NCBI GenBank assembly: GCA_002335145.1
Contig: DDBV01000016.1
Location: 521 to 20,112, forward strand
Source: Patescibacteria group bacterium UBA2023
Lineage (GTDB): Bacteria > Patescibacteriota > Gracilibacteria > BD1-5 > UBA2023
Direction: 5' to 3'
DNA length: 19,592 bases
Below, in pieces: positions 382-19,414 of this stretch; position 1 is the first letter of the stretch; every line of letters starts with the position of its first letter. The notes beneath the pieces are model-generated. The model did not search any database. It was not told where the DNA came from and was given only the letters and a program-made list of their open reading frames with translations. Made by a program: the position numbers and the translations under genes.

Positions 382-383
382 TT

Positions 384-1070
384 ATGATAATTTCATCATC
401 GTCCGCGCCAATCGAGTACCTCACAACCCTCTACGACTACCTCCGTCTCGGTCTCCCTCCGGTCGAATCCGATATCCTCGCGGTCTTCGGCAGCATAGAC
501 CCGGACGTGGCGACCTACGCGGCCGAGCTCTGGCATGCCGGATATTCGAAGTCCTGAAAGATCCTCGTTTCCGGAGGGATCGCGCATACCAACGATCTGC
601 TCGCAACCGGATGGAACGAAACGGAAGCACGGGTTTTCGCTCGCGAAATGATCCTCCGCGGCGTACCGGAAGACGCAATTATTTTCGAAGACCGTGCCAC
701 CAACTCGGGCGAGAACGTCCGATTCTCTGCGGAGATCATTGAGCGAGAATTCCCGGACGCACGGTCGTTTCTCATCGTCCACCTCCCCTACATGGAGCGT
801 CGCGCGATCGCCACATGGGAAGCACAATACCCACGACCGTACGATGCCGCCCGCCCCGTCTCGCGCCCGGAGACGCTCGACGAGTACCTCATACGAACCG
901 GCATAGATACGGCGCGTCTTGCGAATATCCTCGTCGGCGATGCCCTCCGCATGGAGCGGTATACCGCGCTCGGATACCAATCGGATCAATGACCGCTCCC
1001 AACGGACATACGGACCGCCTGCGACACACTCATCTCACTCGGGTACGATCAGCATTTACCGAAATCTTAG
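384..1070 (+). CDS. DUF218/YdcF-like protein (two UGA-Gly codons)
   Basis: This is a 228-residue protein if UGA is read as glycine at codons 58 (555-557) and 203 (990-992); the frame ends at TAG. Under the standard code it would break into fragments. The first UGA gives the sequence SKSGKILVSGG, which fits the strand-then-glycine turn of the DUF218 (YdcF/SanA-like) fold. Further family-like features are GVPEDAIIFEDRATNSGEN around residues 90-110 and the LIVHLPYMERRA segment, which correspond to the family's E-x-S-x-N-T-x-E-N and fH-x-x-Ra motifs. The biochemical role of the family is not settled; envelope-related functions and binding of nucleotide-like ligands have been suggested. The start ATG lies two bases after the thyA stop and has no Shine-Dalgarno, so translation is probably coupled. 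No signal peptide or membrane segment is seen. Placement between thyA and folA is unusual. Confidence 0.85.
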
Positions 1071-1071
1071 C

Positions 1072-1560
1072 ATGTCTATCTCCCTCATCGTTGCCATGGA
1101 CCGCAACAACCTGATCGGGCGATCGGGGGAACTTCCATGGTACATTCCCGCCGATCTCAAGCGGTTCAAGGAATTGACCAAATGAGGCGTGGTCGTGATG
1201 GGACGCAAGACGTTCGATTCGATCATTGCACGGATCGGCACTCCCCTGCCAAACCGCATCAACGTGGTCGTGACCCGAGATACATCCTACTCCTATGAAT
1301 GAGTCGTCATTGCACACTCGCTCGACATTGCTCTCGGCAATGCCCGACTCTTCGGTGGACGGGATATTTGGATCATCGGCGGAGCCGAAATCTACCGACA
1401 GGCTCTGGAGTCGAAAATCCCAGACCACCTCGTTATTACCCGAATAGATCGGGATCACGAGGGGGATGCATGGTTTCCAACCGTCCCGCCCGAATACACA
1501 CTCACATCAACGGAACCAGGTGGAGAGTACTGGCACTACGAAGCCTGGACAAAGAAATAA
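1072..1560 (+). CDS. folA: Dihydrofolate reductase (two UGA-Gly codons)
   Basis: This 162-residue protein is a normal-length FolA, which reduces dihydrofolate to tetrahydrofolate with NADPH and regenerates the cofactor oxidised by the neighbouring ThyA. Visible motifs are N-terminal SLIVAMDRNNLIG, LPW, PADLKRF with the acidic substrate-binding residue, MGRKTF, PLPNRINVVVTR, WIIGGAEIY (NADPH binding) and the LVITRI...GDAWFP end. UGA occurs at codon 38 (1183-1185), where homologues carry the glycine of T-x-G just before VMGRKT, and at codon 77 (1300-1302), giving YEGVV, where a loop glycine is common. Both support UGA as Gly. The ATG is one base after the preceding TAG stop and has no Shine-Dalgarno. 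The gene closes the thyA operon at TAA. Confidence 0.96.
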
Positions 1561-1587
1561 TTGACAGCTCATTATTTAGCCTATAAT
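1561..1587 (+). promoter_or_regulatory. Consensus sigma-70-type promoter with 15-bp spacer
   Basis: A perfect TTGACA (1561-1566) and a perfect TATAAT (1582-1587) are separated by 15 bp, immediately after the folA stop. A start near 1594 would give a leader of about 30 bases to the ATG at 1624. An AT-only inverted repeat (AAATAAT 1555-1561, ATTATTT 1571-1577) overlaps the -35 and may be a weak terminator of the thyA operon or chance. Confidence 0.8.
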
Positions 1588-1623
1588 CATATTCGTGGAA
1601 TCTAATCATTTTTTAAAGTAGCC

Positions 1624-2310
1624 ATGAGCAAGAGAGGTGTAGAGGAACTCTTTTCACAGGGGGATACAAGCTCATCAGTATCTGGAAGCGTTGGTAAGAT
1701 ATTCGACCAACTGTTTGGAGATGTGTTCTGAGACAACGGAGGAATCCTGCCAGGGAACGACCGATCATACCGACCACCCCAAGGGTGGTTTCAAATCAGC
1801 GGCGGTGAACTGAATACTCTCTGGCTCACACCTGGGGGATCGGTCTCAAGTGCTCCGTCCCAGCATGAAGGACTCAGCCGTACACTCGTGAGTAGCGGGG
1901 CGGCTGGCCGCCTCTTCGCGGCATATCGGGAGGAGCAGGACGTGGTCGTACACTCGCCAAACTTTGGCGAGGTGTATCCTATTGGATGGAACGTAACGCC
2001 CGAGCGGTGGATGCTCTACGCGAGCTTCGCAGAGATGGGAGCAAAACACTCGCCCCATGCGGGAAGCTGGTCGGGAGACGCGGCCAATCCCGATACGGTG
2101 GCCCTCCACCTCGCGGCACTCGATTCAGACGGAGCAACCCACGAGATCCGCGGTATCGGTACGGCAATAGTTACTCGTGAGACGCTGAAGACCCGACGCA
2201 ATGCCCGCGACACGGGGAAGACACCACCGGCGTTACCGATCGTCTTCGATCCCAAGTATGCCCAGCTGCTCGGTGAAGACGGCATGGAAGCGATTCGCAC
2301 CTTCGTATAA
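1624..2310 (+). CDS. Unknown 228-aa protein (one UGA-Gly codon)
   Basis: I do not recognise a family. The frame runs from ATG to TAA with one internal UGA at codon 36 (1729-1731), giving FGDVFGDNGG. The first 40 residues are polar and Ser/Gly-rich. Residues from about 50 onward look like a compact globular domain, with PPQGWFQISGGEL, LWLTPGGSV, FGEVYPIGWNVTPERWMLY and a C-terminal IVFDPKYAQLLGEDG segment. There is no signal peptide, membrane segment or cysteine cluster, so it is probably cytoplasmic. The gene is isolated as its own transcription unit, with a consensus promoter about 40 bases upstream and a strong terminator 18 bases downstream. That suggests strong, constitutive, independent expression. 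No Shine-Dalgarno precedes the ATG. A function cannot be inferred from the neighbours. Confidence 0.85.
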
Positions 2311-2327
2311 TCCAGAGAGAAAAATCC

Positions 2328-2361
2328 AAAAAAGATGTCCGCTACGGCGAGCATCTTTTTT
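2328..2361 (+). terminator. Rho-independent terminator after the 228-aa gene
   Basis: The A6-GATG arm (2328-2337) pairs with CATC-T6 (2352-2361). An inner CGC/GCG stem closes a TACG tetraloop, with one mismatch and one wobble between. The T-tract completes the signal, and it lies 18 bases after the TAA. Confidence 0.8.
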
Positions 2362-2692
2362 GCTTTCGTATATGACTCGTATGCAATTCAATGACTCCTG
2401 ATGTATGTATGCGTGTTCGTTTTTTTGTCTTCGTGCGCCACCAATAGACAATATAGAGCCTGCCTGGCGGATGATCGGTCACATGAATGAAATGATCCCG
2501 CTACAAAGACCGAATCGGTGACCAGGAAACCGCGCGTTTTACCACCAACAACCGCACCGTACTCCGAGGTCCGAGCAATTCGCCAATTTCGTCAGATCAC
2601 TTTCCTCATATACTCACTGGCACTGATTGCTTCCGGTTTGCAATTCACCCCGTTCCTCCTACACTATTCCCATATTTTCACGGGAGTTTCTC
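2362..2692. other. 330-base intergenic region, no gene recognised
   Basis: This stretch between the terminator and the PolA-like gene holds no coding sequence, tRNA or known RNA motif that I can support. A weak inverted repeat (TTGTCT 2425-2430, AGACAA 2446-2451) and a candidate promoter (2638-2665) are present. With UGA as Gly, the PolA frame is open back to an ATG at 2471, but the codon use there is unlike the neighbouring genes and adds no recognisable domain. Confidence 0.5.
2638..2665 (+). promoter_or_regulatory. Candidate promoter of the PolA-like gene
   Basis: TTGCAA (2638-2643) and TACACT (2660-2665) are spaced by 16 bp and would place the transcription start about 20 bases before the ATG at 2693. 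Both boxes match consensus at four or more positions. It is plausible but not unique in this region. Confidence 0.4.
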
Positions 2693-3889
2693 ATGGCGGA
2701 AAAAGAAACCTTCTACCTGCTCGATGGACACAATTTCCTCTACCGGCTCTTCTATGCCGTACCGGAATTTACCACGTCCGATGGAACCCCTGTGAATGCG
2801 GTCTTCGGAATGACGCGCGTGCTTATGGGGATTCTCCGAGAAGATCGACCGAGTCACATCGCCGTTGTGTTCGACAGCCGTACAAACTTCCGAGAGCAAC
2901 TCTATGCCGAATACAAAGGCACTCGCGACCGAATGCCCGACAATCTCCGGGGCCAGGAGTCGATCATGCGCGAAATGATCGGTCTGCTCGGAATCCCCGT
3001 TGTAAGTCTCGAAGGATACGAAGCCGATGACATTATCGGCACACTCGCCACGCACTGCGCTTCGGCGAACCGTCGCATCGCTATTCTCTCATCGGACAAG
3101 GATCTCCTGCAATTCGTGGACGATTCACGCGTGGTAGGGTACGACCCGATGAAGAAGAAGCTCATGAAGCGCGCCGATGTCATTGAAAAATTCGGCGTTC
3201 CACCGGAATTCGTAGGAGACTACCTCGCGATCGTAGGAGACACTTCGGACAACATTCCCGGTATTCCGGGATTCGGCCCAAAGAAGGCACAAACACTCAT
3301 CGGCGAGTATGGCCCGCTCGAGAACATCTACGCGAATATCGATGCGATTTCCGGAAAAACTCGCGAGACACTTATCGAGAACGAAGAACGCGCATTCTTG
3401 AGTAAGAAGCTTGCGACCATTGATTGCAATGTTCCCATACCTACGGACAATGATTCGTATCGCTCACCCGGCACAGCCCGAATCGACTCGGCGGACTTCC
3501 GAGAGTTCCTCGGACGCTACGAATTCCATTCCCTCCTGCCTCGGGAAACCCGAGAAATGCGAGATTTCAACTCGCTCGGACTTGAAGCTCGGGAAATCGC
3601 CTCACAAAGTGAGGCCGATGAAACAATACGACAAGTCTCCGATTCTGAGCGTGTCGGTTTTGCGACCTGGGGACGAGACATCGAGTGCGATGGTATCGCG
3701 CTCACGTTCGATGGACAACACACCTTTTTGCTCCCTGCAACGAGCCGGTATTTCCCGTCCGTATTGGCAGCGGTCCTCGCTTGCGACACGCTCACTGGAT
3801 ACGATCTGAAGGACGACCTCCGGCGACTTGAATACGCCCGGATCTGGGGGTACGCCGGGGCAACCGGAGGGCAGACTGGACTTTTCTAG
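2693..3889 (+). CDS. PolA N-terminal region only: 5' nuclease plus degenerate 3'-5' exonuclease-like domain
   Basis: The 398-residue protein begins like DNA polymerase I. Residues 1-290 form a complete 5'-3' (flap) nuclease: LLDGHNFLYRLFYA (D11), VVFDSRTNFREQLYAEYKGTR (D61), YEADD (109-113), SSDKD (133-137) and the helix-3-turn-helix segment GDTSDNIPGIPGFGPKKA (182-199). All acidic metal ligands expected there are present, so Okazaki-primer and flap removal is the likely role. Residues 300-385 resemble the PolA 3'-5' exonuclease fold (LTGYDLKDDLRRLE matches NLKYDL), but the catalytic DxE is replaced by FATW (323-326), so it should be inactive. The protein then ends at TAG, and no polymerase domain follows in any frame. 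The ATG was chosen because family similarity starts there and GGAG lies six bases upstream. The stop overlaps that of the convergent gene. Confidence 0.9.
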   Translation: MAEKETFYLLDGHNFLYRLFYAVPEFTTSDGTPVNAVFGMTRVLMGILREDRPSHIAVVFDSRTNFREQLYAEYKGTRDRMPDNLRGQESIMREMIGLLGIPVVSLEGYEADDIIGTLATHCASANRRIAILSSDKDLLQFVDDSRVVGYDPMKKKLMKRADVIEKFGVPPEFVGDYLAIVGDTSDNIPGIPGFGPKKAQTLIGEYGPLENIYANIDAISGKTRETLIENEERAFLSKKLATIDCNVPIPTDNDSYRSPGTARIDSADFREFLGRYEFHSLLPRETREMRDFNSLGLEAREIASQSEADETIRQVSDSERVGFATWGRDIECDGIALTFDGQHTFLLPATSRYFPSVLAAVLACDTLTGYDLKDDLRRLEYARIWGYAGATGGQTGLF

Positions 3890-4239
3890 AGCCCGAGCCA
3901 ACCGAACAATCCTCCAGACCGCTCTGTTTCAGGAGATTGAGGAGATGTGGTTTGTGCTTCGAGCTTGTCGTAGTCCTCGCGCGGTCCAACACGCCGGGTC
4001 ATTGGGCGTACTTCAAATATACCTGGTTCCGCAGCGGGACGGTTTTCATTGGCTCGATTGATTCGTGCACGCATGGAAATAGATTCCTCGGTGAGAGCGT
4101 CGCCGATACGTCCTGAAAAATGCTCGCTCACGCGCTCGATACGATGCATATCTCCGGCAAGTGCAGACGTTGCCGACAAGCCAATATAGGCAGCCGTAAC
4201 CACAGCCCTGGGGCCGTCCCGGAAGAATGGTGATTTCAT
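3886..4239 (-). CDS. Small putative secreted protein, 117 aa
   Basis: I do not recognise a family. Reading the - strand from ATG (4237-4239) to TAG (3886-3888) gives 117 residues. The N-terminus looks like a signal peptide: MKSPFFRDGPR, then a hydrophobic run AVVTAAYIGLSATSALA with a possible cleavage after ALA (about residue 28). The mature part is short, charged and probably largely disordered (EENRPAA, TTSPQSPETERSGG) and ends in the hydrophobic GLFGWLGL. A promoter-like element lies 33-59 bases upstream. Upstream ATG and TTG codons in the same frame exist, but using them would bury the signal peptide and read through the preceding gene's terminator. Its stop shares the palindrome CTAG with the stop of the convergent PolA-like gene. 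It contains no UGA codon. Confidence 0.6.
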   Translation of the reverse strand: MKSPFFRDGPRAVVTAAYIGLSATSALAGDMHRIERVSEHFSGRIGDALTEESISMRARINRANENRPAAEPGIFEVRPMTRRVGPREDYDKLEAQTTSPQSPETERSGGLFGWLGL

Positions 4240-4271
4240 ACGGATCAATGGTGAAAAAAATATCGGCCGGA

Positions 4272-4298
4272 ATTGTATGCTTCTTTCCTTAAAAGCAA
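4272..4298 (-). promoter_or_regulatory. Candidate promoter for the 117-aa gene
   Basis: On the - strand, TTGCTT (4293-4298) and TACAAT (4272-4277) are separated by 15 bp, the same spacing as the consensus promoter at 1561. The start codon is 33 bases downstream. Confidence 0.45.
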
Positions 4299-4311
4299 GG
4301 AAAAATCCAAG

Positions 4312-4330
4312 AAAAACCGGGACGGTTTTT
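4312..4330 (-). terminator. Hairpin terminator after the 89-aa gene
   Basis: AAAAACCG (4312-4319) and CGGTTTTT (4323-4330) form a perfect 8-bp stem with a three-base loop. On the - strand it begins inside the TAA of the 89-aa gene and ends in a T-run. It separates that gene from the 117-aa gene. Confidence 0.65.
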
Positions 4331-4598
4331 ACCATCTGTTCGCCAAGCCACGAAAACCCGCGTCCTCTCTCGTTCCTCCTGCTTGAGACACGGCACGGCC
4401 GATACCGAAAGAAGTCCGCTCGATAACGGACTCGGTCGCCGGACGGACACGGGGCGATGGTGCGAGCATCTCAAGGAGCAAATACGCCGCCCCCATCGCG
4501 ACCATGGACGGAAGCGTCTCAAGATCCGACCATTTCACCCCGAAAACCCGGAGAGGCCGAGGGATATTTCGGGCAAAAGATTCGATCTGCGATCGCAT
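4329..4598 (-). CDS. Unknown small protein, 89 aa
   Basis: I do not recognise a family. The - strand frame from ATG (4596-4598) to TAA (4329-4331) encodes 89 residues. A TTG ten codons further upstream (4626-4628) is an alternative start. The middle contains a moderately hydrophobic stretch (LPSMVAMGAAYLLLEMLAP, about residues 29-47) that could be a single membrane helix or a buried helix. The flanks are Arg-rich. No UGA codon is used. Support comes from the terminator that starts directly at the stop codon and from the absence of a better frame in this interval. The gene is divergent from the DnaQ-DinG gene, with about 160 bases between the two starts. Confidence 0.5.
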   Translation of the reverse strand: MRSQIESFARNIPRPLRVFGVKWSDLETLPSMVAMGAAYLLLEMLAPSPRVRPATESVIERTSFGIGRAVSQAGGTREDAGFRGLANRW

Positions 4599-4695
4599 AA
4601 GCAGAAGTGAGTACGTAGATATGTGCAATGGACATCATCCGATTCTATTCAAACACGGTAAGAACTGGACGTATTTCTAACGGAAGAAGAAAAAA

Positions 4696-4724
4696 TTGCC
4701 GTTTCGGGACGAAACGGATACTAT
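4696..4724 (+). promoter_or_regulatory. Candidate dinG promoter with a perfect palindromic operator
   Basis: TTGCCG (4696-4701) and TACTAT (4719-4724) are spaced by 17 bp. Between and overlapping them lies the perfect palindrome CCGTTTCG-GGA-CGAAACGG (4699-4717). A palindrome filling the spacer is the classic layout of a repressor operator, and DinG-type helicases are often damage-induced, so a LexA-like role is possible but inferred. On the - strand the same hairpin is followed by a T-rich tract, so a terminator reading is also possible. Confidence 0.45.
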
Positions 4725-4757
4725 GGCCGCCACATTCCGCACCGTATACCCGACCCG

Positions 4758-7517
4758 ATGAACACCATCTACGCGAGTTTCGACATAGAATCAACCGGCA
4801 CCGATCCTCGCCGCGATGCCATCATCGAGATCGGAATCGTGCGTTTCACATCGGATGGGGAGATTCTGCGGACCTACTCTACCCTCGTGCGCCCCACCGG
4901 AGCATTGCCACCGGAAATCGCGGAGATCACGGGCATTACTGAGTCCATGCTCGCGAGTGCGCCAAGGATCGACTCACTACGGACGGCCGTCATGGAGGAG
5001 CTCGCAGACGCCGTGCTCGTGGGGCATAATATCGAATTTGATCTCGCATTCATGGAGGCAGCCGGCATTTCCCTTGCGGGACGGACAGCCATAGATACCT
5101 TCGCGATGGCGAAGTTCCTTGCATGGAACGAATCATCTCTCAATCTCGGTCATCTCGTACGATCTTTCGGTCTCGAGGCGGGAGAATTCCACCGTGCGGC
5201 TGATGACGCACTCGCTACGGCACGACTCTTTTGCTCTTTCGTATCCCGGTTGCGTGCGCTCGATCCTTTGCGGTCCGGTATTCTTCGGACTCTCTCAGAC
5301 CGTAGCCCCAAGAACACGCTCTTCTCTCACGTGGAAGAGGAATTTCTCCCCGCAAACGAAAGCGGACCGGCAACATGGAATGATTGCAAGGATGCCATCG
5401 TCTCAGCCATAAGGGCGAGGACTGCGGTGGAACCAGTCGATGAAGAAACACCGAGACCCGAGATCTCGGTGGATGCTATTCTCTCGGCTATGGCCGAGAC
5501 GGCCACGGAGAATGGTCGGACCATGGAACCAAGACCCGAGCAACGACGCATGATCAACACCGTAGCTGACGCTCTGAGGCAGCGGAAAAACACCGTAATA
5601 GAAGCTCCGACCGGGATCGGAAAGACCTTCGCCTATCTCCTCCCGACACTCTCGAGATCGCTTCCGCGGCGCGAGCGCGTTGTGGTTTCCACCCATACCA
5701 AGCTCCTGCAAGATCAGCTCTTGGATCGGGATCTGCCGTTTTTGCGCGACTCGCTCGAACGTGCCGGAGTTCCGAAGAGCTCATGGCGTGTGGCAAAACT
5801 CAAATGACGAGGCAACTATGCATCGGTGGCACTCGCATTCGAGCGTGTGGAAAATGCGACATACGATCCCGAGTTCTTCGTGTTTGCGGCGAAGATTCTC
5901 TTATGGATGACGGAAACCAAGACCGGGGAACTCGATGAGCTCTCGTGGTACGGCCGAGAATACGAGTGGGCAGCGGAAATCCGTGCCAACGGGTCGTACG
6001 TCCTCGATCGGGACAACCCGCACCGCGATGCCGAATTTCTCACGACGGCACGCGAGCGTGCGAAAGAGGCCGACTGCGTTGTGGTCAATCACGCATTTCT
6101 CCTATCCGAATACGCCGAGGAACGAGTAGGAAAACGAATCCTTCCGCCCGCGGACCATATGATCCTGGACGAAGCCCACACCCTCGAAGACGTAGTGACG
6201 GGAGCTTGTCGACGCGATGCCTCGTACGAACGATTTGATGAAACGCTCGCAAAAATCGAGACGACCATTCGGGCCTATAATACCCGAGCAAAAGACCGGC
6301 TCGAAGAACCGTTTATCATGCCCGAGTGGACATCGCTTCGAGATGGCATGAATATCGATGCGGGGATCGCATTCGATTTCTTTGCCGAATACTTCGCCGA
6401 ACGCTCGGGGATCGCAGCCGGGCAGGAACATCGCGACATGCTCCGGCGGGACGATATATTCGCCCGCGAAGGGTATGCGACCGTAAGTCGGGCCGGAAGC
6501 GCGCTCGAAGAGCGAATGAAGACCATGCTGGAGCTGCTCTGGAATGCACCGGAACCGCTCGTAAGACGAATCGATGCCTACACGGACGCGCTCGAATCCA
6601 TGGTCGATACGATCGTGCGACACATTCGCGAGAGCGAGAAAGATGCGATTCATATCGTGGGGTCGAGCGTGCGGTCGGGAGCGGTATTCCTTGCCACAGC
6701 CCCCTTGAAAGTCGGCGATTTTCTGCGATCCAAACTCTGGAGTACGCCCGCGGTCAAGATTCTCGCAAGTGCCACGCTCCGAGTCGGCGGATTATTCGAT
6801 GCCATGCGTTCGATGCTCGGATTTGAGGGATTCGAAGAAGCGGTGTTCGCATCGGACTTCGATTATGCCTCGCAATCACTCTTCTATGTACCGACCGATC
6901 TCTGAGATGTCCGACATGCCGGAAGCAAGACGCGCGTCCACCGCTTCCTTGCGGAATTGATCCGGACCGTTGGAGGGAAGACGCTCGCGCTCTTTACATC
7001 CTTCGCAAGTATCAAGGAGGCATATCTCGCCACGAATCCAGACCTCAAATCGGCGGGGATTCGCATACTCGCCCAGGGACTCTCCGGCGGCAAACAACGG
7101 ATGCTCGCGGAATTTTTATCGAGGCCGGAATCATGCGCGATCTACGGGACCGATTCGTTCTGGCAGGGCATCGACATTCCCGGTAATGATCTCGGCACTC
7201 TCGTCATTCACAAGCTCCCATTCGCTGTACCGACCGATCCGGTCGTTGCTGCACGCTCTTCCCTGTATGCCGATGGCTTCGCCGAGTATAGTGTCCCGCA
7301 AATGATTCTCAAGCTCCGCCAGGGAATCGGACGACTCATACGCACTCGGTCAGACCGCGGCATCGTAGTAATGCTCGACTCGAGAGTCCTCTCCGGATGG
7401 GGATCCGCAGTGCTCGAAAACCTACCGGAGGGAATGAAGATTCGTACCGCACCATCGGAGGAATTCTTACGCATGCTCAAGAATCGGCTCTCAGACAAGA
7501 CCGAGAGGGCTGGCTAA
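4758..7517 (+). CDS. dinG: DnaQ-DinG fusion: 3'-5' exonuclease plus XPD/DinG-family helicase (two UGA-Gly codons)
   Basis: This 919-residue protein joins a DEDDh exonuclease to a DinG-type superfamily 2 helicase, the architecture seen in Firmicutes DinG. The exonuclease ligands are D9 and E11 (FDIEST), D95 (HNIEFD), and H145 and D150 (HRAADD). Helicase motifs are Walker A APTGIGKT (283-290), motif Ia STHTKLLQDQLLDRD, the DEAH box (471-474), GTDSFWQGIDIPG near residue 800 and the motif VI QGIGRLIRT. UGA encodes residue 350, giving KLKGRGNY where DinG proteins carry KGxxNYxC, and residue 716 (TDLGDV). The four cysteines of the usual 4Fe-4S cluster are absent: only one cysteine occurs between 351 and 440. 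It may therefore act mainly as a nuclease or a cluster-free helicase in DNA repair. No Shine-Dalgarno is seen. Confidence 0.95.
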
Positions 7518-7524
7518 AATTTGT

Positions 7525-7537
7525 GTTCGATTCGAAC
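7525..7537. other. Short palindrome upstream of the pilus-like operon
   Basis: GTTCG-ATT-CGAAC is a perfect inverted repeat in the 57-base gap between dinG and the next gene. It could be an operator or a weak hairpin. A TATCAT -10-like box lies closer to the next start, but no convincing -35 partner was found. Confidence 0.25.
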
Positions 7538-7574
7538 ATATGGTATCCTCTCGGGGTATCATTTGTTTTTTGCT

Positions 7575-8429
7575 ATGGTGAGCCTATCGAATAAAGACGC
7601 GAGAACCGAGCAGGGTGCAGATCTCTTCGGACAGCTATCCGGCGAGCTCGATCTCGGACGATCCGAAGAAGAGCTGGGCTTCGAGACACACGATCCGATC
7701 GAGCGGCGCATTGTCCTCTGAAACCGCATACTTACGGGATTCATGGTCATCGGAATACTGACCGTGGCATTCATGAAGCTCGACATCTACCTGCGATTTG
7801 ACGCGGCAGATATAGGATTTTTCCGGAATTTCCCCATCTGCGACCGCCTCATCTCGGGTGTGGAGGGATACGAAAACCCGGGATGTCTCAATACGACCAT
7901 GCTTCGGGACAGCCTCACACGCCAAAAGGAAGAGCTCGAAACCGCTACCACGAAGCAGCTGATGCTCTACGTACCGTTGGTGCTCCCAACAATCAGTGTC
8001 GAGACCCGACCCGATGTGCAGTTTATTACCGAGACGACATCGAGCCGCACGCCGATAGTAAAAATGCTTGATACCCTCTATGAGGCAAAGAACGACACGG
8101 ATCTCAAGGGAGAAGATATCGAGTGTTCTGGGTACAAGTTCATCCGCGGAGGAGCACTCAAATTCTCGTGCAGCGTCTACGGGTCATCTGTTCTCGGTCC
8201 TATGGGACAGGCTCCGGTCTCTTCGCGCACGAAGACATTTCAATTCCTCGACCGACTCCAAAAGAAAGATACCGGATTCAGCATTCTGAACTATCCGTCA
8301 ACACTCCCGATCGATACATTCAAGAGCGCGGAACCGGGAATTAAGTCCCTCTTCGAGACCCGCACAAAGATCAGTCTCGACCTCCTCTATACTCCGCCGG
8401 AGCCAGAGAATCGCGATTCCGAAATCTAA
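7575..8429 (+). CDS. Single-pass membrane protein of a pilus-like operon, PilN-like layout (one UGA-Gly codon)
   Basis: The 284-residue protein has a cytoplasmic acidic N-terminus of about 48 residues (EQGADLFGQLSGELDLGRSEEELGFE). One membrane helix follows (about residues 52-68, ILTGFMVIGILTVAFM), then a coiled-coil-prone segment (RDSLTRQKEELETATTKQ) and an extracytoplasmic domain. UGA encodes residue 49 (7719-7721), immediately before the helix, giving VLGNRILTG; the open frame on both sides supports decoding it. The layout and the position before a second single-pass protein, a GspE ATPase and a GspF protein resemble the PilN/PilO or GspL/GspM inner-membrane alignment proteins. The sequence itself is not recognisable as PilN, so the assignment is contextual. 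It ends at TAA, 11 bases before the next ATG. Confidence 0.75.
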
Positions 8430-12391: not shown

Positions 12392-12416
12392 ACACAAGAA
12401 AGAAAACCGATACAAT
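12389..12416 (+). promoter_or_regulatory. Candidate murE promoter
   Basis: TTTACA (12389-12394, five of six consensus bases) and TACAAT (12411-12416, five of six) are spaced by 16 bp. The murE ATG lies 36 bases downstream. Confidence 0.55.
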
Positions 12417-12451
12417 GCGCTCATTGAGCGTATTTGTTTTCTCGCCGACCC

Positions 12452-13759
12452 ATGAGCGCGTTCTCTAAGCTCCTCCCCCTGAATCATCCGATCCGAGTCC
12501 TCTACCACTACGTCCGCGGTATCGCCGCCCACTGGCGGTATGGGCGACCTGGTCGCAACATGACCGTGATCGGCATCACCGGAACAAAAGGAAAAACCAC
12601 GACCACGAATCTCATCGCCCGTGGCCTGAGTGGCAACGGCGCACGAGTGTTCGCATTCTCGACCGCAAACTACTGTATGGATGGCGAGTGGCACGAGAAC
12701 ACCACAAAAATGACGAGCCCTTCACCATTCGTGCTCCAGCGACTCCTTCGTGAAGCGGAAAACCGTGGCTGTACCCATGCGGTCATCGAGACATCGAGTC
12801 ACAGCGTATTCTATCACCGGGACTACGGTGTCGCCTATGACACGGTCGTCTTCACGAATCTCTCGCGCGACCATCTCGATCTCCACCGCACCATGGCCGA
12901 TTACCTCGCGACCAAGAAGCGACTCTTCGAGTGACTCGTTTACTACCGCCGAAAAAAGGGCGTGAAGAAGATCGGGATCGTGAATCTCGATGACCCCGCC
13001 GCCAATGAATTTCTCTCCGTGACAGCGGACGCGCTCATTACCTACGGGCTCACCCCCGCAGCCGAAATCTCCGCAAAGAGCGTACAGGAGACGGGGGACG
13101 AGACAGTTATTACCATTCGGATGCCCTCGAACGAATTTGTAATCCGATCTAAACTCCGCGGCACCTACAATGTATCGAATATCCTCGCTGCCACCGCGGC
13201 ACTCATGGCCCAGAAGGTTCCATCGGCAGTAATAGCGGAGACGCTCTCGAAAACTTCTGGCATACCATGACGACTGGAACCAGTCCAAAATCACCTGGGA
13301 ATACGCATCTTCGTGGACTACGCTCACACCGAATGATCGCTGCAAAACGTCCTTGAGACCGTCCGAAACATTCCGGACTGCGGACGAGTTATTGTCGTGT
13401 TCTGAGCGACAGGAGACCGCGACCCAGCAAAACGTCCCAAGATGGGAGCCGTAGCAGACCGCTTGGCAGATGTCGTCATAGTAACGGATGACGATCCTTA
13501 TACCGAGCCTTCCGCCAAGATTATTGCCGAAATAGCGGAAGGGGTCTCGCGAAAAATCGGAGAGAACTATTGGATCGTCCCGAATCGGGAAGACGCCATC
13601 CGAACCGCTCTCGCAGTCTCCCGATCCGGAGATACCATCGTACTGGCTGGCAAAGGATCGGAGACGATCCAAATGACGAACCGCTGAGCGGTAAAATGGA
13701 ACGATGCGGAAGCGACAAAACGGATTCTTGCGGAGGTTGAAAAAAACGAAATCAACTAG
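12452..13759 (+). CDS. murE: Mur ligase MurE, shortened N-terminus (five UGA-Gly codons)
   Basis: This 435-residue UDP-MurNAc-tripeptide synthetase adds the third amino acid of the peptidoglycan stem. Motifs are the ATP loop GITGTKGKTT (41-50), TSPSPFVLQ, ETSSHS, FTNLSRDHLDLHRTMADYLATKKRLF, GTYNVSNILAATAA, DYAHT, VVFGATGDRDPAKRPKM and LAGKGSET. UGA encodes residues 161, 273, 295, 318 and 412. Residue 273 (IPGRLE) and residue 318 (VFG) are conserved glycines in MurE. The N-terminal UDP-binding domain is reduced: the ATP loop begins at residue 41 rather than near 110. The specificity motif DNPR of diaminopimelate-adding enzymes reads DDPY (347-350), so the third residue may not be meso-diaminopimelate. 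The stop is TAG. It has its own promoter and no Shine-Dalgarno. Confidence 0.94.
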
Positions 13760-13794
13760 GCTAGAATCGGACTGGAAAAATACGGGGATCTCGC

Positions 13795-14091
13795 ATGGAA
13801 GACTCCCCATCGGATGAGCCGATGGAAGCTTCGGGTATGAGGTACGCGCGGTATGCCCGACCCCCGATGAAGATGACATACTCCCCTTCATCGAATCATT
13901 TGTCCGAGGATGAGATAATTCCTCCGCGAGCATTTGACGACACGTCTACTGCGTATCACTGGGGTGAAACCATCGACGACACCGCGATCATGGCGACCGC
14001 GATGAACCCCACCATATGAGTGCTCGCCGCTGGAGAAGCATCGGACTGTCCGAATTCGAACGGCCGGAAGAGGTCGAACATGATCCGATAA
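13795..14091 (+). CDS. Uncertain hypothetical protein, 98 aa
   Basis: This is a low-confidence call. From ATG (13795) preceded six bases earlier by GGGGA, a frame with one UGA (14017-14019) runs to TAA (14089-14091). The second half has codon use like the neighbours (GETIDDTAIMATAMNPTIGVLAAGE); the first half (MEDSPSDEPMEASGMRYARYARPP) is atypical. The frame one base earlier (positions divisible by three) is open from before 13761 to TAG at 14131-14133. It contains a natural-looking stretch (YEVRAVCPTPDEDDILPFIESFVRG) but has no start codon and five UGAs. Either this gene is real, or the region is a degraded or frameshifted gene, or it is non-coding. No family is recognised. Confidence 0.3.
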
Positions 14092-14136
14092 AAAAAGAAG
14101 TACACTCTCCGAAAATAGCACGAGGACATTAGACCA

Positions 14137-14142
14137 TATAAT
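14137..14142 (+). promoter_or_regulatory. -10 element upstream of rsmE
   Basis: A perfect TATAAT lies 22 bases before the rsmE ATG. No good -35 is seen at 15-18 bp upstream, so this is supported mainly by the -10 match and position. Confidence 0.4.
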
Positions 14143-14164
14143 CGGTAATCTGTAAAGTTTTCCC

Positions 14165-14869
14165 ATGCAACGGTTCTTACTCGATACCCCTCTTGCCGAA
14201 CGAATTTGTCTGACAAACCCCGACCTCGTCCATCAGATCGGTCATGTCCTGCGATCAGCGGTCGGAGACTCGATTGTTTTCTTCGATGGCCACTCACCCG
14301 AAGAACACCTCTACCGGATCGAGAGTGTCTCCAAGCGGACAGTAGAGTGCCGCCGGACGGCAATACGCCCCTCCGAATGCGAACCGCAACATCGGGTAAC
14401 GATCGCTCAGGCCATGCCAAATACCATCGAAAAGCTCGAGTATGCCCTGCAGAAATGCGTGGAAATCGGCGCGACCGGATTCATAATATTTCGCGGTGAC
14501 CGCTCGCAAAAACCGCTCCCGAATGAACACAAACGCGAGCGTCTCGAAAAAATCGCAAAAGAAGCACTGGAGCAATGCGGCGGCTGTATCATGCCGGAAA
14601 TCCGCTATACCGAGAGCATATCCGATGCGATTGGGAGTCCACGGGAGACCTTCGCGCTCGATATGGGGCCGTTCCGTGCCGATTCCATGACCGAGCACGG
14701 ATCGATAACACTCCTTGTCTGACCCGAAGGAGGATGGAGCAACGAAGAACGGGAGTTTTTCAGTCGGACAGGGATCGAGCGGATTTCATTCGGCAATCGC
14801 GTGATGCGAACCGAAACAGCTGCTGTGGCTGGATGTGTAATGTTTGCTCACGGCACACAGTTGTGATAG
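14165..14869 (+). CDS. rsmE: 16S rRNA m3U1498 methyltransferase RsmE (two UGA-Gly codons)
   Basis: The 234-residue protein belongs to the SPOUT (trefoil-knot) methyltransferases and matches RsmE, which methylates U1498 (E. coli numbering) of 16S rRNA using S-adenosylmethionine. The N-terminal PUA-like part shows HVLRSAVGDSIVFFDG. The knot domain has IAQAMPNTIEKLEYALQKCVEIGA, RGDRSQ, KEALEQCGG, LLVGPEGGWSNEE and the terminal FGNRVMRTETAAAVAG. UGA at codon 186 (14720-14722) supplies the first glycine of GPEGG, an essentially invariant cofactor-binding glycine, which is strong evidence for UGA as Gly. A second UGA at codon 234 (14864-14866) immediately precedes the TAG stop, so the C-terminus reads either ...TQL or ...TQLG. 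No Shine-Dalgarno is visible. Confidence 0.95.
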
Positions 14870-14905
14870 ACTCAGATCAATTCACCCTCATTCTTTTTTC
14901 AAACT

Positions 14906-16756
14906 ATGGTCGCCAACTTCGCTTGATCGAATCGCTCCGCACTCAGCGATAGTGCAAGAAACCGTATCGAGGCGGCAAAATCCGCACTCTCGAACTACAC
15001 CGCGAAGGACGCGCCCTCAAAAACCGATACACGGTCGCCCGAAATCTCACAAGACGTAGACGCGTACTTGGCACGGCAAACCGAATCGCTGTATCTTTTG
15101 GAGAGTATCGTTTCGGGGGACATTACGACATTCCTATCAGAAGACGTATTCGAAGCAGCGGAACGACTATCCGCCATGCTCTCGGACCGTCGGGACACCA
15201 CCGGAAACTCTAACGGAGAGACAGTCGAGACGATCATGTGATGGATCACGAAAGAGTGTTTCTCTCGGATCCGTGCGTCCATCGGAGAATTTCCCATGGG
15301 GGCGATCGATGCCTTCAATGCAACGATCATCGTAGTTGACCGCCTCCTATCAGCATTCGGCTCTCCTTCCATGTTCCATCGGACAAGAACGATCGGAAAC
15401 CGAAAACCGGACGATATGTTCGCCGGGACGCTGGTCATCAACTCGGCTCTAGACAAGACGATCAGCGAATACCCAGACGGCCTCAGGAGTCTCATCGGAA
15501 TGTATGAACACATTGCCGAGTATCTGTGCCCAGAAGAGGAGTTCTCCGAGGCGGTACCCGCCCACAACAAAGCATCCCGAACACTCGTATGGCAGACCAC
15601 CCGAGAGTACTACCACTCCCTCCCGGTCGTCACGATGCACGAGGATATTCGTGCGTACTTTATCGGCACACTTCGTGGCGTACGGATGTTTTCGACAATC
15701 AGAACCTCTTCACACGCCGGCCAGAGTGTCCTTCGCGGGAGCGATATATATGCGACATACGAGCAGCTCGTCCGACTCCAGAACTACCTCAGAACCAGAG
15801 GAGTCGAGGGAGAATATGAGATCGATGCGACCCGGACATTTACCGTATCACCGTCCGGTATCCAAATGCGAAAATGCCTCGTACAGTCAAAATGGCACGA
15901 AGGAAAACAGCAATTTCTTCTCGATATAGAGACTGCATGGAATGATCCGACTGATATACTCGGAATTGCCGATACGCCCGGAAAGAACCCAGTCTCCCGA
16001 GCAAGCAACATCGCAAGAAACCTCAAGAACATTCGCCAAGCAAGTGACCAGGGCGAATTGGAAGGAGTGCGGTATCGGAGTGACTGAGCGAGACTCGTAC
16101 GGGAACGATCCACGCGCATGGTCGTGCGGATTGATGACGTCCTCTGATTCCGTATCGAGGAAGACGTGGAGACAACGGAGTGAATGCGCCGACTCTACGG
16201 CATGGCTACCGACATAACGCTCATGAACGTGATCGCCGAAGCGGTCGCACGAATGGCACACAGAGCCGAGAACACACCAGCGAAGCCGGAGCGCGCTCGA
16301 CATATTTCTATCACCAAACGGTCAATCGGACCAAAACAGAAAGTCGTCCTCTCGGCCCGAGATGAACTCCCCGAATCGACCCGTCCCGTACGCCACAGAC
16401 CCCTATGAGAAGTAACCACGGCCACGAGCGGTCGAATCGATGCGGTACTTGCCCACGGCGAACGCCGCTATACCCTCCCAGACAAGGGGTGGCATTCGGC
16501 AATGCCGACACTCCCTGCGTGATACCGGATCTCCCGGGAGGCATTCGATCGCGCGAGGGAAAACGGAAAAGAACTCGCGTTCGAAATCGTGCCACTCCAC
16601 GATGGTGAGACCATGTATGATCCGTATCTGGGGACCTACGATGACACGATGGAATACCTGAAAATGCTCTACAACGAATTCGATGAAAAGACGCACGTGA
16701 TTCGCATGCAGACATACCGGCGATCCACGGCAGAAATGCGGCAGACTGCTCAGTAA
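14906..16756 (+). CDS. Unknown 616-aa protein with seven UGA-Gly codons
   Basis: I do not recognise a family. The frame from ATG to TAA is continuous only with UGA as Gly at codons 7, 112, 394, 414, 426, 501 and 539. The first 100 residues are helical and polar (DSARNRIEAAKSALSNYTAKDAP). Residues 120-400 look like a mixed globular domain, with FPMGAIDAFNATIIVVDRLLSAFG, GLRSLIGMYEHIAEYLCPEEEF and LVWQTTREYYHSLPVV. A basic linker follows (HISITKRSIGPKQKVVL). The C-terminal 120 residues, starting near GRIDAVLAHGERRYTLPDKGW, appear to be a second domain. No signal peptide or membrane helix is seen. A weak promoter (TTGCTC, 17 bp, TAGACT) lies in the end of rsmE. A strong bidirectional terminator follows the stop. 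Function is unknown. Confidence 0.85.
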
Positions 16757-16783
16757 AAAAGGGGGGTTACTCCCCTTTTTTAC
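16753..16783. terminator. Bidirectional terminator between convergent genes
   Basis: GTAAAAAAGGGG (16753-16764) and CCCCTTTTTTAC (16772-16783) form a perfect 12-bp stem with a seven-base loop. T-runs appear on both strands. The TAA of the 616-aa gene lies in the left arm. The last codons of the - strand 76-aa gene, which ends at 16767, lie in the right arm. Confidence 0.9.
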
Positions 16784-16997
16784 TCTTCCCGAAGAAGTGC
16801 TCGAGCACGATACCAGCCACGGCCGCCGGGAGAAATTCGAGATTCTTGACGTAGCGGTAGGCGGTCGCGGCGTCCCGGACAATCTCTCGGACCTCCCGCA
16901 GAATCCCGATGAACATGGCGAGTGCCACGATCATCATGATACCGAGGATGATATTGAACGCAACGAGTACGACGATGAGCAAATCCATCGGTGTCAT
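16767..16997 (-). CDS. Small membrane protein, 76 aa
   Basis: The - strand frame from ATG (16995-16997) to TAA (16767-16769) encodes 76 residues. A second ATG three codons later is also possible. The N-terminus is a long hydrophobic helix (about 5-32, LLIVVLVAFNIILGIMMIVALAMFIGIL). An amphipathic charged segment follows (REVREIVRDAATAYRYVKNLEF), then a second short apolar stretch (PAAVAGIVLEHFF) and a basic tail (GKSKKGE). This layout resembles DUF948-like or other small single-pass proteins, but no family is certain. It is the last gene of the csaB operon, 12 bases after the 134-aa gene, and its 3' end forms one arm of the shared terminator. There is no UGA codon and no Shine-Dalgarno. Confidence 0.75.
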   Translation of the reverse strand: MTPMDLLIVVLVAFNIILGIMMIVALAMFIGILREVREIVRDAATAYRYVKNLEFLPAAVAGIVLEHFFGKSKKGE

Positions 16998-17009
16998 GGA
17001 GAACGAACG

Positions 17010-17414
17010 TTAAAAAGCGAAATTGGAGAAAAAATCCCGCACAGGCTCATCCCCCTCGATCCGTCGGACTTCTTCTCCCGATTTGAACGCTCTTCCGATC
17101 TGATTGGTCTCGATCGAGAGTTTTTTGTCGAATCCCGTCCCTGAAGCCATATCGAGGTAGCGCAAAGTCGCGGATTCAATCCATGCCTTCGTCACGAGTT
17201 CTGGGTAGCGAACCACGGAGAGTTCGTAGGTCTCATTTGTGGTAGAGCCGGCGATGAGGACCGCCTTCTTCTCGGACAAAAATGCCTGGTATTCATCGTC
17301 GCTCTTGAGCGTAGCGCGCGATTTGTGGGCCGTGTCAGCGGAGAATTTTTTGGCGCGGTCGGCATATTCCCGAGCCTTATTGGTAGCGTCTTCGCGCAGT
17401 TTCTTCCAGTCCAT
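17010..17414 (-). CDS. Unknown 134-aa protein with charged helical N-terminus
   Basis: I do not recognise a family. The - strand frame from ATG (17412-17414) to TAA (17010-17012) encodes 134 residues. The first 45 are rich in Lys, Arg and Ala, and helical (KKLREDATNKAREYADRAKK). The rest looks like a small alpha/beta domain with strands KKAVLIAGST and YELSVVRYPELV and a C-terminal VRDFFSNFAF. No signal peptide or membrane helix is visible, so it may be cytoplasmic or bind the membrane face through the basic helix. Its start lies inside the end of csaB (38-base overlap), and the 76-aa membrane protein follows 12 bases later, so the three are probably co-transcribed. No UGA is used. Confidence 0.75.
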   Translation of the reverse strand: MDWKKLREDATNKAREYADRAKKFSADTAHKSRATLKSDDEYQAFLSEKKAVLIAGSTTNETYELSVVRYPELVTKAWIESATLRYLDMASGTGFDKKLSIETNQIGRAFKSGEEVRRIEGDEPVRDFFSNFAF

Positions 17415-18483
17415 TGGTCAAAAAACGTTCGAGAGTATGTGAGAGGTTCGTCCGCATTGTATCGGAATCGCGCATGAGCGCAAGTCGCGCCTCCTCGTGC
17501 GAGGATTCGAGCCGATCGAAGACAGTGAATATCTCCTCCGGCGAGGTATCGTCCGCACAAACTCGATACGCGTGGTTGTAGCGGTCGAGCAGTGCATCGG
17601 TCTTGGTGGAGTAGGACACTCCCACGAACGGGAGAGCATGGACGAACGAGAGGATATTCGCGTGGAGTCGCATCGCGATCATCGAGTGCAACCGCGGATA
17701 CCATTCGAGCGATTCCTGCATCGACACCGTGATCGTGACGCCGAGACGGTTGGCAATCGCCCGATAGCTCAAGTGGTCGTTCGATACCCTGTCCTCTCCG
17801 TGAAACGAGTGTGATATGAGTACCGGTTCGAATCCTCGTTCTCGCAATCATGCCACGAGACCAGCAAGCAGACTCTCGTCATCGGCAGCATACCCTCCAC
17901 GCAGGGCAATGCCGACAAAGCGGGATTTCGAATCAGATCGAGCAAGCGGCTCGTAGAGATGGACGGGATCAGGGAGGAGATCGGCTTCGATACCGATCTC
18001 CCGGAGCGTCTGCTGCGAAGCCTCATCACGCACGGATACACGAGTACCGTGAAAGAGTGAACAAAGCGTCTCCCGGTGCTCCGGAGAAACATAGACTCAA
18101 ACGGCACACCAGAAGACGGGTTTCCGCAAGAATTTGGCAACCATGACGCGCAATAACCACTGAAGCCGAAGACTTCGGAATGATTGTCCGGGTTCGTTGT
18201 CGTATACAAGCCCTCCTCCCCCGAAGATCACCAAGTCGGCGCGGGCCGTCTCCACGAGTGTCCGCAAGAATATGAGGATATTCTTCCAAGGATGGCGTCG
18301 GATTGCATGGGGAAAGTATCCGATCGTCCGGACATCCGATACGAGCATGCTCGCAGGATCATACGTTGCACATACGCACTCAATGCCAGGAAATGCTCGC
18401 GCAAGCAGACGAACCTCCTGTGCGAGAATAAGCTCGTCTCAAAGGTTGCGATGACCGGAAGCGGTAAAAACAAACGCCCTCAT
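17377..18483 (-). CDS. csaB: Polysaccharide pyruvyl transferase, CsaB family (three UGA-Gly codons)
   Basis: The 368-residue protein matches the polysaccharide pyruvyl transferase family, whose member CsaB adds a ketal pyruvate to a secondary cell-wall polysaccharide so that SLH-domain surface proteins can bind. Family features are the N-terminal NLGDELIL (13-20), ADLVIFGGGGLVYD (about 82-95), FLRKPVFWCAVGVYV, the TRVSVRDEASQQTLREIGI segment, MRLHANIL (271-278) and LPFVGVSYSTK. UGA encodes residue 15 (18439-18441), the glycine of the family's N-x-G-D-E motif, residue 129 in the AVGVY loop, and residue 212. The intact frame starts at ATG 18481-18483 and ends at TAA. It is the first gene of a - strand operon and divergent from the Kazal-domain gene. 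No SLH domain protein is in the window, so the acceptor polysaccharide is unknown. Confidence 0.9.
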
Positions 18484-18486
18484 GTC

Positions 18487-18513
18487 TTGACTCGAAAAGT
18501 GACGGAGTATACT
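18487..18513 (+). promoter_or_regulatory. Promoter of the Kazal-domain gene, 15-bp spacer
   Basis: TTGACT (18487-18492) and TATACT (18508-18513) each match consensus at five of six positions and are separated by exactly 15 bp. The ATG is 31 bases downstream. The -10 lies in the palindrome AGTATACT, which could also serve csaB on the other strand, although no good - strand -35 was found. Confidence 0.7.
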
Positions 18514-18544
18514 GAGGAAGTATAGTCCATAATCGAAAACACGT

Positions 18545-19414
18545 ATGGCAAAAAAGAATGCAACTCACTTCATACCCGCGCTCGCGCTCATTTTGCTCTT
18601 ATCTGGTGTTGCCATCGGATACGCGCTCTTCGGTGAGGAGAGCAACCCATGAGGCGAGATCGATTCTCACACTGGTCTCACGACCAACTCCGACACCCCC
18701 CTCTGCACGACCGATTACGCTCCGGTATGCGGTACCGATGGACGGACATACTCGAATCGATGCGTAGCGGAAAAGCAGAATGCCATCATGGTTGCCTCGG
18801 AAGGAGCATGTCCTCTGGTTTCCGAAACGGACGAATCTGAACCACTCCCATCAACGGGGGGCACGATGACCGATTCAGTCACCGCTCCGGAGTATATCGG
18901 CTCGGATATAGAGATGCGTGCAAATCCGGAGACCATCACATCGGAGGCGGTCATGGGATCGTCTTCGGACATGTCCGAATCGAGTACACGGACCGGGTCT
19001 GTCTTAGAGTCTCCGTCCGCCGTTATCAGCACTTCCGTAGCCACATACGACAATCCAGTGGTCGGCTACGGATTCGACATGCCGAAATCGAGCTACTACC
19101 AGGGATTCGGAGCGCGCGATGGTGCGGTCCACTCCGTTGCTGTGCAGGCCGGCACGGGCGTGACGACCTTCGAAGACGCAACAGTCCGCGTGTTGCTCTA
19201 TCGCTCCATCCTGGAGCCGCTCATGGAAAACGGGCGCAAGATTATCTCGGATGAGGAATCCGGACGCGTCTATGTCCGGATTGGGACGGGTATGACCGCG
19301 GTCGTGGAGGCATCGAGCATGGACGATCCAACGGCCCGAGTAATAGTAGAGAGTCTGCGCGAAGCCCGCACGACTCCTGCCACGGATGATATTGTCGCAC
19401 CGATCGGACAGTAA
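18545..19414 (+). CDS. Membrane-anchored Kazal-type protease inhibitor domain protein (one UGA-Gly codon)
   Basis: The 289-residue protein begins with a short basic N-terminus and one hydrophobic helix (about 9-29, FIPALALILLLSGVAIGYALF), an uncleaved anchor or signal peptide. UGA encodes residue 36 (18650-18652), giving NPGGEI. Residues 54-89 form a Kazal-like domain: C54, seven residues, C62 in APVCGTDGRTYSNRC, ten residues, C73, then C89. This keeps four of the six classical Kazal cysteines, as in many bacterial and follistatin-type versions. Kazal domains inhibit serine proteases. A Ser/Thr/Glu-rich linker follows (about 92-165), then a C-terminal domain (SVAVQAGTGVTTFEDATVRVLLYR) of unknown family. 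It is probably displayed on the outside of the cell. It has a good promoter, and a phosphatase gene starts three bases after the TAA. Confidence 0.85.

Follow-up and report, generated by a model that had tools for sequence, protein, structure and literature searches.

The window analysed here, a 19,592-nucleotide stretch of contig DDBV01000016.1 from Patescibacteria group bacterium UBA2023, was called as 16 complete genes. Ten of the 16 carry in-frame UGA codons, 26 in total, whereas no in-frame UAA or UAG was found in any called gene. All 16 genes end in UAA or UAG, and none ends in UGA. This recount confirmed the tally of the first-pass annotation, which had reported 26 in-frame UGA codons in ten genes terminated by UAA or UAG. 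If the three stop codons were equally likely to arise as errors, the probability of all 26 in-frame stops being TGA would be 4e-13. The ten genes are as follows.

384..1070, + strand: DUF218-domain protein, 228 aa (PF02698, E 8e-18); UGA at 555 and 990
1075..1560, + strand: dihydrofolate reductase FolA, 161 aa (PF00186, E 2e-44); UGA at 1183 and 1300
1624..2310, + strand: 228-aa protein, open frame only, no family match; UGA at 1729
4758..7517, + strand: DnaQ-exonuclease/DinG-helicase, 919 aa (PRK08074, E 3e-155, below the curated cut-off); UGA at 5805 and 6903
7521..8429, + strand: 302-aa protein, open frame without Pfam match; UGA at 7719
12434..13759, + strand: MurE ligase, 441 aa (PRK00139.1-4, 378 bits, above the cut-off); UGA at 12932, 13268, 13334, 13403 and 13685
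14165..14869, + strand: RsmE 16S rRNA methyltransferase, 234 aa (PF04452, E 1e-37); UGA at 14720 (the leading G of GPEGG) and at 14864
14906..16756, + strand: 616-aa protein, a single open frame when read with table 25, no family match; UGA at 14924, 15239, 16085, 16145, 16181, 16406 and 16520
17377..18480, - strand: CsaB-like polysaccharide pyruvyl transferase (PF04230, E 5e-29; TIGR03609, E 3e-30, below the cut-off); UGA at 18439, 18097 and 17848 (lowest base of each codon; the start near 18480 was chosen by us)
18545..19414, + strand: Kazal-domain protein, 289 aa (PF00050, E 3.5e-9); UGA at 18650

Five of the 16 genes (the 228-aa protein without a family and the 302-, 76-, 134- and 616-aa frames) gave no match in a Pfam search. 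For the 616-aa protein, none of 7996 candidates scored was a homologue at E 1e-3, and a PDB search with CsaB gave no match. Two further TGA codons lie in a minus-strand frame (3886-4638) that likewise gave no Pfam match and was left out of the gene count. The GC content of the window is 54%, and UGA accounts for 6.6% of its glycine codons. CGA (n=106) and CGG (n=99) are both common.

Ten of the 26 UGA sites, in FolA, RsmE (14720), MurE and DinG, were compared with alignment columns after masking UGA as X, and six of the ten were found to occupy glycine columns. Both FolA sites, 1183 and 1300, are G in all three alignments listed, and RsmE 14720 is G in all three structures listed, with RsmE 14864 lying beyond the alignment ends. 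Among database homologues of MurE, 13268 corresponds to G in 114 and W in 6 of 120, 13403 to G in 108 and W in 11 of 119, and 13685 to G in 59 and W in 50 of 109. Two other MurE sites are variable, 12932 being N in 88/120 and G in 14/120, and 13334 being chiefly D, E or A, with a single G. One MurE database homologue is titled 'gcode 4', and the W residues at the glycine columns probably come from database proteins translated with table 4. The earlier placement of UGA on glycines at FolA 1183, RsmE 14720 and MurE 13268 and 13403 was thus upheld, but the description of DinG 5805 as an invariant glycine was not borne out, because the two aligned DinG structures have S and P at 5805 and A and R at 6903, with glycine at neither site.

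The host genome (1.10 Mb, 89% complete) was found to contain one class-I release factor, which is RF1: it scored 483 bits against NF001859 (cut-off 400) and only 276 bits against the prfB model (cut-off 370). The predicted absence of RF2 (prfB) therefore agrees with what was found, although at 89% completeness a missing RF2 gene in this genome alone falls short of proof. Only one of 77 genomes of the host's order has RF2 above the cut-off. This genome, G058, is split over some 500 contigs and, at 2.7 Mb, is about double the usual size; it is suspected to be contaminated despite a rated contamination of 3%. An excerpt of PMC6851277 likewise describes prfB as undetected in the BD1-5 genomes then available.

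A tRNA-Gly with anticodon UCA had also been predicted, and one UCA tRNA with glycine acceptor identity was found in the host genome (C16:18760-18838). Its acceptor end, G1:C72, C2:G71, G3:C70 and U73, contains the elements given as criteria for tRNA-Gly(UCA) in an excerpt of PMC8629427; the acceptor stem has seven pairs and the variable loop four bases. The sole tRNA-Trp found in the host genome has the anticodon CCA. Such a UCA tRNA was observed in 64 of the 77 order genomes, two having been discarded because their sole match was no tRNA. A viral source of this tRNA was considered and dropped: viral contigs were scanned three times, with 1, 0 and 14 hits to the pattern, ARAGORN found no UCA tRNA in these 15 stretches, and the sole viral match to the six-pair form described below does not read as a tRNA.

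All 46 tRNA-Gly(UCA) copies read from the order have six contiguous anticodon-stem pairs, as do all 22 distinct copies of the type found in the sister family f13. Six pairs were observed in none of 29 ordinary glycine tRNAs and in 33 of 243 other tRNAs; at least six potential pairs were counted in 4/30 other class I tRNAs of the host genome, 1/26 of G140, 20/123 at f13 loci and 8/64 at order loci, copies being distinct within each group and the groups possibly overlapping. The six-pair stem is thus enriched in UCA tRNAs, but is not exclusive to them. The proposal that it is unique to the host's order was rejected, because counting outwards from the loop revealed that the f13 copies share a covarying sixth pair at 26:44; ARAGORN draws five pairs in three of four f13-type UCA tRNAs and six in the other. 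Single-sequence folding of the host UCA tRNA gave a cloverleaf with six pairs, but this result carries little weight, since the z-score was not strong (-1.25) and the f13 and tRNA-Gly(UCC) comparison sequences gave no full cloverleaf.

Across 11 genomes of the order, UGA at conserved rpoB columns falls on G in 159 of 174 cases and on W in none, in a comparison that contains only five conserved W columns. In the same gene, CGA falls on R in 34/42 cases and CGG on R in 4/8, and W is not among the residues listed. In the RF1 genes of 54 genomes, the UGA share of glycine codons was found to be negatively correlated with GC content (Spearman -0.87), reaching about 80% in low-GC members, and no UGA was seen in RF1 of three genomes with 44-58% GC. 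UGA use in the order thus drops with rising GC, such that the host, at 54% GC, uses UGA for about 7% of its glycines. The order and f13 are sisters with support 100 in an rpoB tree that includes G001, whose frame is broken; independent origins of the code in these two groups, also considered, are accordingly unsupported. The closest named MurE homologues are from Gracilibacteria. The window's order is most likely the Gracilibacteria/BD1-5 group, and f13 is probably Absconditabacteria.

Could UGA instead encode tryptophan, as in the Mycoplasma-like table 4? Open frames would look identical under such a code, some MurE homologues bear W at the relevant positions (6, 11 and 50 rows), and a review gives Trp as the meaning of UGA in BD1-5 (PMC4695839). 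However, UGA is absent from the tryptophan columns of rpoB and abundant at its glycine columns, the FolA, RsmE and MurE columns are glycine, and the UCA tRNA bears glycine identity elements together with U73, all of which make a tryptophan code extremely improbable. The label that ARAGORN gives to the UCA tRNA, selenocysteine tRNA, raises another alternative. Selenocysteine tRNAs have an extended acceptor stem and an extended variable arm. The host tRNA, with seven acceptor-stem pairs, only four bases in the variable loop, U73 and an acceptor end of GCG/CGC, speaks against this label, and UGA occupies glycine columns; a selenocysteine function is thus exceedingly unlikely.

Under the standard code, the in-frame UGA codons might also be explained as errors, leaky stops or signs of pseudogenes, considering that the assembly is a metagenome-assembled genome from which an RF2 gene could be absent owing to its 89% completeness. 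This is hardly credible in light of the count of 26 TGA against no TAA or TAG in frame, the lack of any gene ended by TGA, and the recurrence of both pattern and tRNA across the order.

The RF1-only genome, the UCA tRNA, the rpoB columns and the FolA, RsmE and MurE columns together support the original assignment of UGA to glycine (NCBI translation table 25), and the window almost certainly derives from a gracilibacterium of the BD1-5 lineage that uses this code, with RF2 gone and a dedicated tRNA(UCA). In the proposed mechanism, UGA would have become a sense codon for glycine because loss of RF2 leaves no factor to terminate there. The dedicated UCA tRNA, whose acceptor identity is that of glycine, would read UGA, RF1 would terminate genes at UAA and UAG, and tRNA-Trp(CCA) would read UGG. 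Glycyl-tRNA synthetase presumably charges the UCA tRNA, so that glycine would be inserted at UGA in the host. From its geometry, the six-pair anticodon stem may help to confine U34 of this tRNA to UGA, away from the tryptophan codon UGG. Published BD1-5 proteomics reported 97 peptides that matched only the Gly database and 3 that matched only the Trp database (PMC4032931); the same study (Hanke 2014) also found individual peptides carrying Trp, Ala, Lys and Asp, so a low level of misreading is possible. Points counted against the table 25 reading were the 89% completeness, the two DinG and two MurE sites off glycine, the W rows among MurE homologues and the Trp listing in PMC4695839.

How does this system compare with known ones? 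The table 25 Gracilibacteria/BD1-5, as excerpted from PMC4032931 and PMC6851277, also read UGA as glycine, with RF1 present, RF2 not found and a UCA tRNA. However, their genomes have 33% and 29% GC, respectively, versus 54% in the window; an excerpt of PMC8629427 gives a range of 0.21-0.53 for Absconditabacteria and Gracilibacteria combined. Absconditabacteria, probably represented by the sister clade f13, share UGA = Gly, but their CGA and CGG are described as Trp codons in that excerpt, unlike the arginine columns occupied in rpoB of the host's order. Excerpts on tRNA-Pyl (PMC5758916, PMC4695839) describe another reader of a former stop codon (UAG) with a six-pair anticodon stem and an unusual D-loop. 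The host tRNA differs from it in having a UCA anticodon, glycine identity, an ordinary T-loop with TTCRA present (T-psi-C is missing in tRNA-Pyl), two bases rather than one between acceptor and D-stems, and a variable loop of four rather than three bases. A UGA-reading tRNA-Trp(CCA) with a four-pair stem, known from parts of PMC13092985, also departs from the usual five pairs, but there the stem is shortened and the reading broadened, whereas the stem of the UCA tRNA is lengthened; the term '6-bp' does not occur in the main text of that paper.

A genome of the host's class, G087, was found to have in-frame UGA at near-invariant glycines of a PilB ATPase and a tRNA(UCA) of glycine type. It also carries an intact RF2 gene, which lies 3 kb from the PilB ATPase gene (C59:6963-12130 covers RF2 to PilB). 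In this lineage UGA seems to mean glycine although the RF2 gene persists. UGA as a stop in G087 was also considered: among 183 frames with a length of 200 aa or more, 19 end at TGA, with a run-on of more than 60 codons in 11 and of 22 codons or fewer in 7. This count is weak alone, because long run-ons are also seen in G118, a control that uses the standard code (3/8). Trees in which f14 was constrained to group with the recoded clades were not rejected (AU p 0.18 for f14 alone and 0.32 with f12); the code in G087 may share its origin with those clades or have arisen independently. We tentatively raise the possibility, somewhat less probable than its converse, that G087 is a living intermediate of UGA reassignment with its own tRNA-Gly(UCA) and intact RF2, and that the recoded clades later lost RF2 and fixed the six-pair tRNA-Gly(UCA), which would aid the separation of UGA from UGG.

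The UGA = Gly code itself is not new, being already known for Gracilibacteria, and the practical gain for the window is therefore correct annotation, since the standard table splits 10 of its 16 genes. The wide range of UGA use across the order makes models of codon reassignment testable along a GC gradient, and the six-pair anticodon stem suggests a testable means of keeping U34 off UGG. Finally, the coexistence of RF2 and tRNA-Gly(UCA) in one lineage, if G087 truly represents such a case, would make an intermediate stage of stop-codon reassignment directly observable.

Within the window (GC 54.2%), 26 in-frame TGA codons are spread over 10 of the 16 complete genes called, and constitute 6.6% (26/396) of the glycine-type codons. 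These genes contain no in-frame TAA or TAG, and all 16 end in TAA or TAG. The recount thus agrees with the first-pass annotation on both the number of UGA codons and the gene ends. That annotation had also placed UGA on invariant glycines, a claim that holds in part. When TGA was masked as X and the residue opposite was read, 10 of the 26 sites were covered and six of these faced glycine. Both FolA sites face glycine, and the RsmE TGA is the first glycine of GPEGG. Three MurE sites (window 12434-13759; homologues P0001-P0120) face glycine in 114/120, 108/119 and 59/109 homologues, and all other rows in these columns (6, 11 and 50) carry tryptophan. The tryptophans probably come from proteins of table-25 genomes (UGA as glycine) translated with table 4 (UGA as tryptophan); "gcode 4" appears in the title of one homologue. 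Two further MurE sites fall on variable columns, and the claim is not borne out for DinG, neither of whose two sites is glycine in the aligned DinG structures.

Other features of the window were also recorded. The first gene is incomplete and encodes the C-terminal portion of thymidylate synthase; a DUF218 gene and folA come next (window 1-1560). Between a PolA-type exonuclease and dinG lie about 870 bases without an assigned gene (3886-4757), where a minus-strand frame with two TGA gave no Pfam match. The 616-aa protein (14906-16756; seven UGA versus 30 GGN) matched no family, and none of the 7996 candidates scored was a homologue at E 1e-3. A protein with a Kazal-type protease-inhibitor domain is encoded at 18545-19414, in a small, reduced genome.

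The host genome, G000 (1.10 Mb, 38 contigs), would be expected from the first-pass annotation to lack the release factor RF2 (prfB) and to carry a tRNA-Gly with anticodon UCA, and both expectations are borne out in this 88.9% complete assembly. Its sole class-I release-factor match is RF1, which scored 483 bits against the NF001859 cut-off of 400, and 276 bits against the prfB model, under the cut-off of 370. ARAGORN, run on the loci of 41 tRNA places, found one tRNA-Trp(CCA) and one tRNA with anticodon UCA. The latter was labelled SeC, and carries G1:C72, C2:G71, G3:C70 and U73, the very elements of the tRNA-Gly(UCA) rule in the portion of PMC8629427 available. The only ordinary glycine tRNA found was tRNA-Gly(UCC); tRNA-Gly(GCC) was probably not captured by the assembly.

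Among the 77 genomes of the order of G000, a release-factor match was found in 68, and RF2 exceeded the cut-off in G058 alone (2.7 Mb, about 500 contigs, contamination rating 3%), which is suspected to be contaminated and whose RF1 has 16 in-frame TGA. Across the class, RF2 exceeded the cut-off in 160/288 genomes. In the 49 genomes of the sister family f13, the best RF2 match (5.6e-81) was at the RF1 level, and three genomes had no match. The UCA-tRNA pattern was present in 66/77 genomes of the order, or 64 once two with a non-tRNA sole match were discarded. A covariance model (38 matches, 29 loci scanned) detected a UCA tRNA in none of the remaining 13, of which 10 are at most 86% complete. 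In six genomes (L158, L160-L162, L182, L186), the RF1 motif reads GGQKVN; GGQHxN was matched in 54 others.

Codon meaning was also read from rpoB without an assumed code, with TGA as X in 30 genomes and a column called conserved when at least 8 of 10 RF2-bearing genomes agreed. In 11 genomes of the order (G001 was left out for a broken frame), 159 of the 174 UGA fell on glycine, 15 on E, A, S, D or I, and none on tryptophan; CGA fell on arginine in 34/42 and CGG in 4/8. In f13, UGA fell on glycine in 126/146 cases and CGG on tryptophan in 2/2, and no CGA was seen at conserved rpoB columns. This pattern, with only two CGG codons, fits the Absconditabacteria code as given in excerpts of PMC8629427, and f13 is therefore, on sequence grounds, probably Absconditabacteria. 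In the rpoB tree, the order and f13 form sister clades (support 100). Because the nearest named homologues of the window MurE are from Gracilibacteria, the order is taken to be Gracilibacteria/BD1-5.

UGA use varies with GC content. In RF1 of 54 genomes (7 of 61 loci were dropped by a motif filter), the UGA share of glycine codons runs from 82% at 28% GC down to zero, the latter in three genomes of 44, 56 and 58% GC (Spearman -0.87, uncorrected for relatedness). In rpoB, UGA accounts for 54/65 glycine codons in G074 and 0/68 in G000. Thus, G000 is a high-GC member that has kept the tRNA and rarely uses UGA. A GC range of 0.21-0.53 is given for Absconditabacteria plus Gracilibacteria in the text seen of PMC8629427.

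The tRNA-Gly(UCA) of the order was found to have six contiguous base pairs closing a 7-base anticodon loop (46 copies from 46 genomes, 23 distinct sequences; L034:501-579 = G000:C16:18760-18838 in the host, further copies in L126-L155 and L222-L240). One unpaired purine separates the anticodon helix from the D-stem, and none of the 46 copies has GG in the D-loop. Compensatory change is seen at two of the six pairs: in G068 the outermost, otherwise C-G, is U-A (one event), and in 6/23 distinct sequences the third, otherwise A-U, is G-C. The second pair is U-G in 23/23. A different, internally conserved UCA tRNA occurs in 41/49 f13 genomes, with at least six contiguous pairs in 22/22 distinct sequences (30 loci read, L361-L390). 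Its sixth pair, 26:44, is A-U in 14 and G-C in eight, and its D-loop contains GG, the GG-less D-loop being confined to the window's order. The six-pair stem is common to tRNA-Gly(UCA) of both recoded clades; it was seen in 0/29 ordinary glycine tRNAs and, in four groups of other class I tRNAs, in 4/30, 1/26, 20/123 and 8/64. Besides the f13 type, G225 (f13) has a second UCA tRNA with a five-pair stem and a glycine acceptor end (L274:1501-1574 / L437; G225:C33, contig end), part of an array that includes Asp, Ala, Tyr, Ile and Arg tRNAs. G054, which likewise carries the six-pair form, has an extra UCA tRNA (L436; G054:C96) whose acceptor stem differs (GTGGCAC...).

The longer anticodon stem may help to confine U34 to UGA, which would be useful because a tRNA that wobbled to UGG would insert glycine where tryptophan is encoded; PMC8629427 points out this hazard. 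Another stop-codon reader, tRNA-Pyl, likewise has six pairs, according to partial texts of PMC5758916 and PMC4695839. The reverse is described in PMC13092985, where a stem of only four pairs enables tRNA-Trp(CCA) to read UGA; "6-bp" has no matches in the main text of that paper. No report of a six-pair tRNA-Gly(UCA) was found in searches of the open-licence literature.

G087, a genome of family f14 in the same class, carries an intact RF2 gene as well as in-frame UGA at glycine positions. The loci concerned are as follows.

L441:6963-12130 (G087:C59), RF2-to-PilB stretch
L439:14311-15369 and L438:4485-4561, further loci for the PilT and tRNA(UCA) evidence

The RF2 (462 bits, over the prfB cut-off) carries the SPF and GGQ motifs; some 3 kb from its gene, the contig encodes a PilB-type ATPase with five in-frame UGA (T2SSE E 7e-129, X at each UGA). 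Three of the five fall on near-invariant glycines (115/116, 118/120 and 119/120; 120 homologues), one on a majority glycine (66/117) and one on a variable column (G in 16/120). The single tryptophan at each near-invariant column belongs to P0121 and probably reflects table-4 translation. Of these sites, the alignment of the window PilB covers four: three have glycine and the other has E. There are five UGA in PilT as well; the one at the Walker-A site is opposite G in 3/3 structures, and the other four face N/N/G, S/S/A, A/A/G and D/D/D. A tRNA with anticodon UCA, glycine identity and a five-pair stem lies beside a glutamine synthetase gene, on a contig other than that of RF2.

Judged from sequence, G087 is possibly an intermediate of UGA reassignment. 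The signal may instead be due to misassembly. Alternatively, f14 may be a basal part of the Gracilibacteria/JAEDAM01 lineage, to which recoding is restricted according to the portion of the review PMC13293708 available; the best rpoB tree does not place f14 beside the recoded clades, and the AU test does not reject trees forced into that grouping (p 0.18). The neighbour of G087 in this tree is the RF2-bearing G121 (f12, L461-L467), in which TGA closes only 3/70 frames of 200 aa or more.

Overall, the finding that UGA is read as glycine is correct and of a known kind; what the window contributes is a high-GC, low-UGA member of a known code. The parts worth following are the tRNA architecture and G087.
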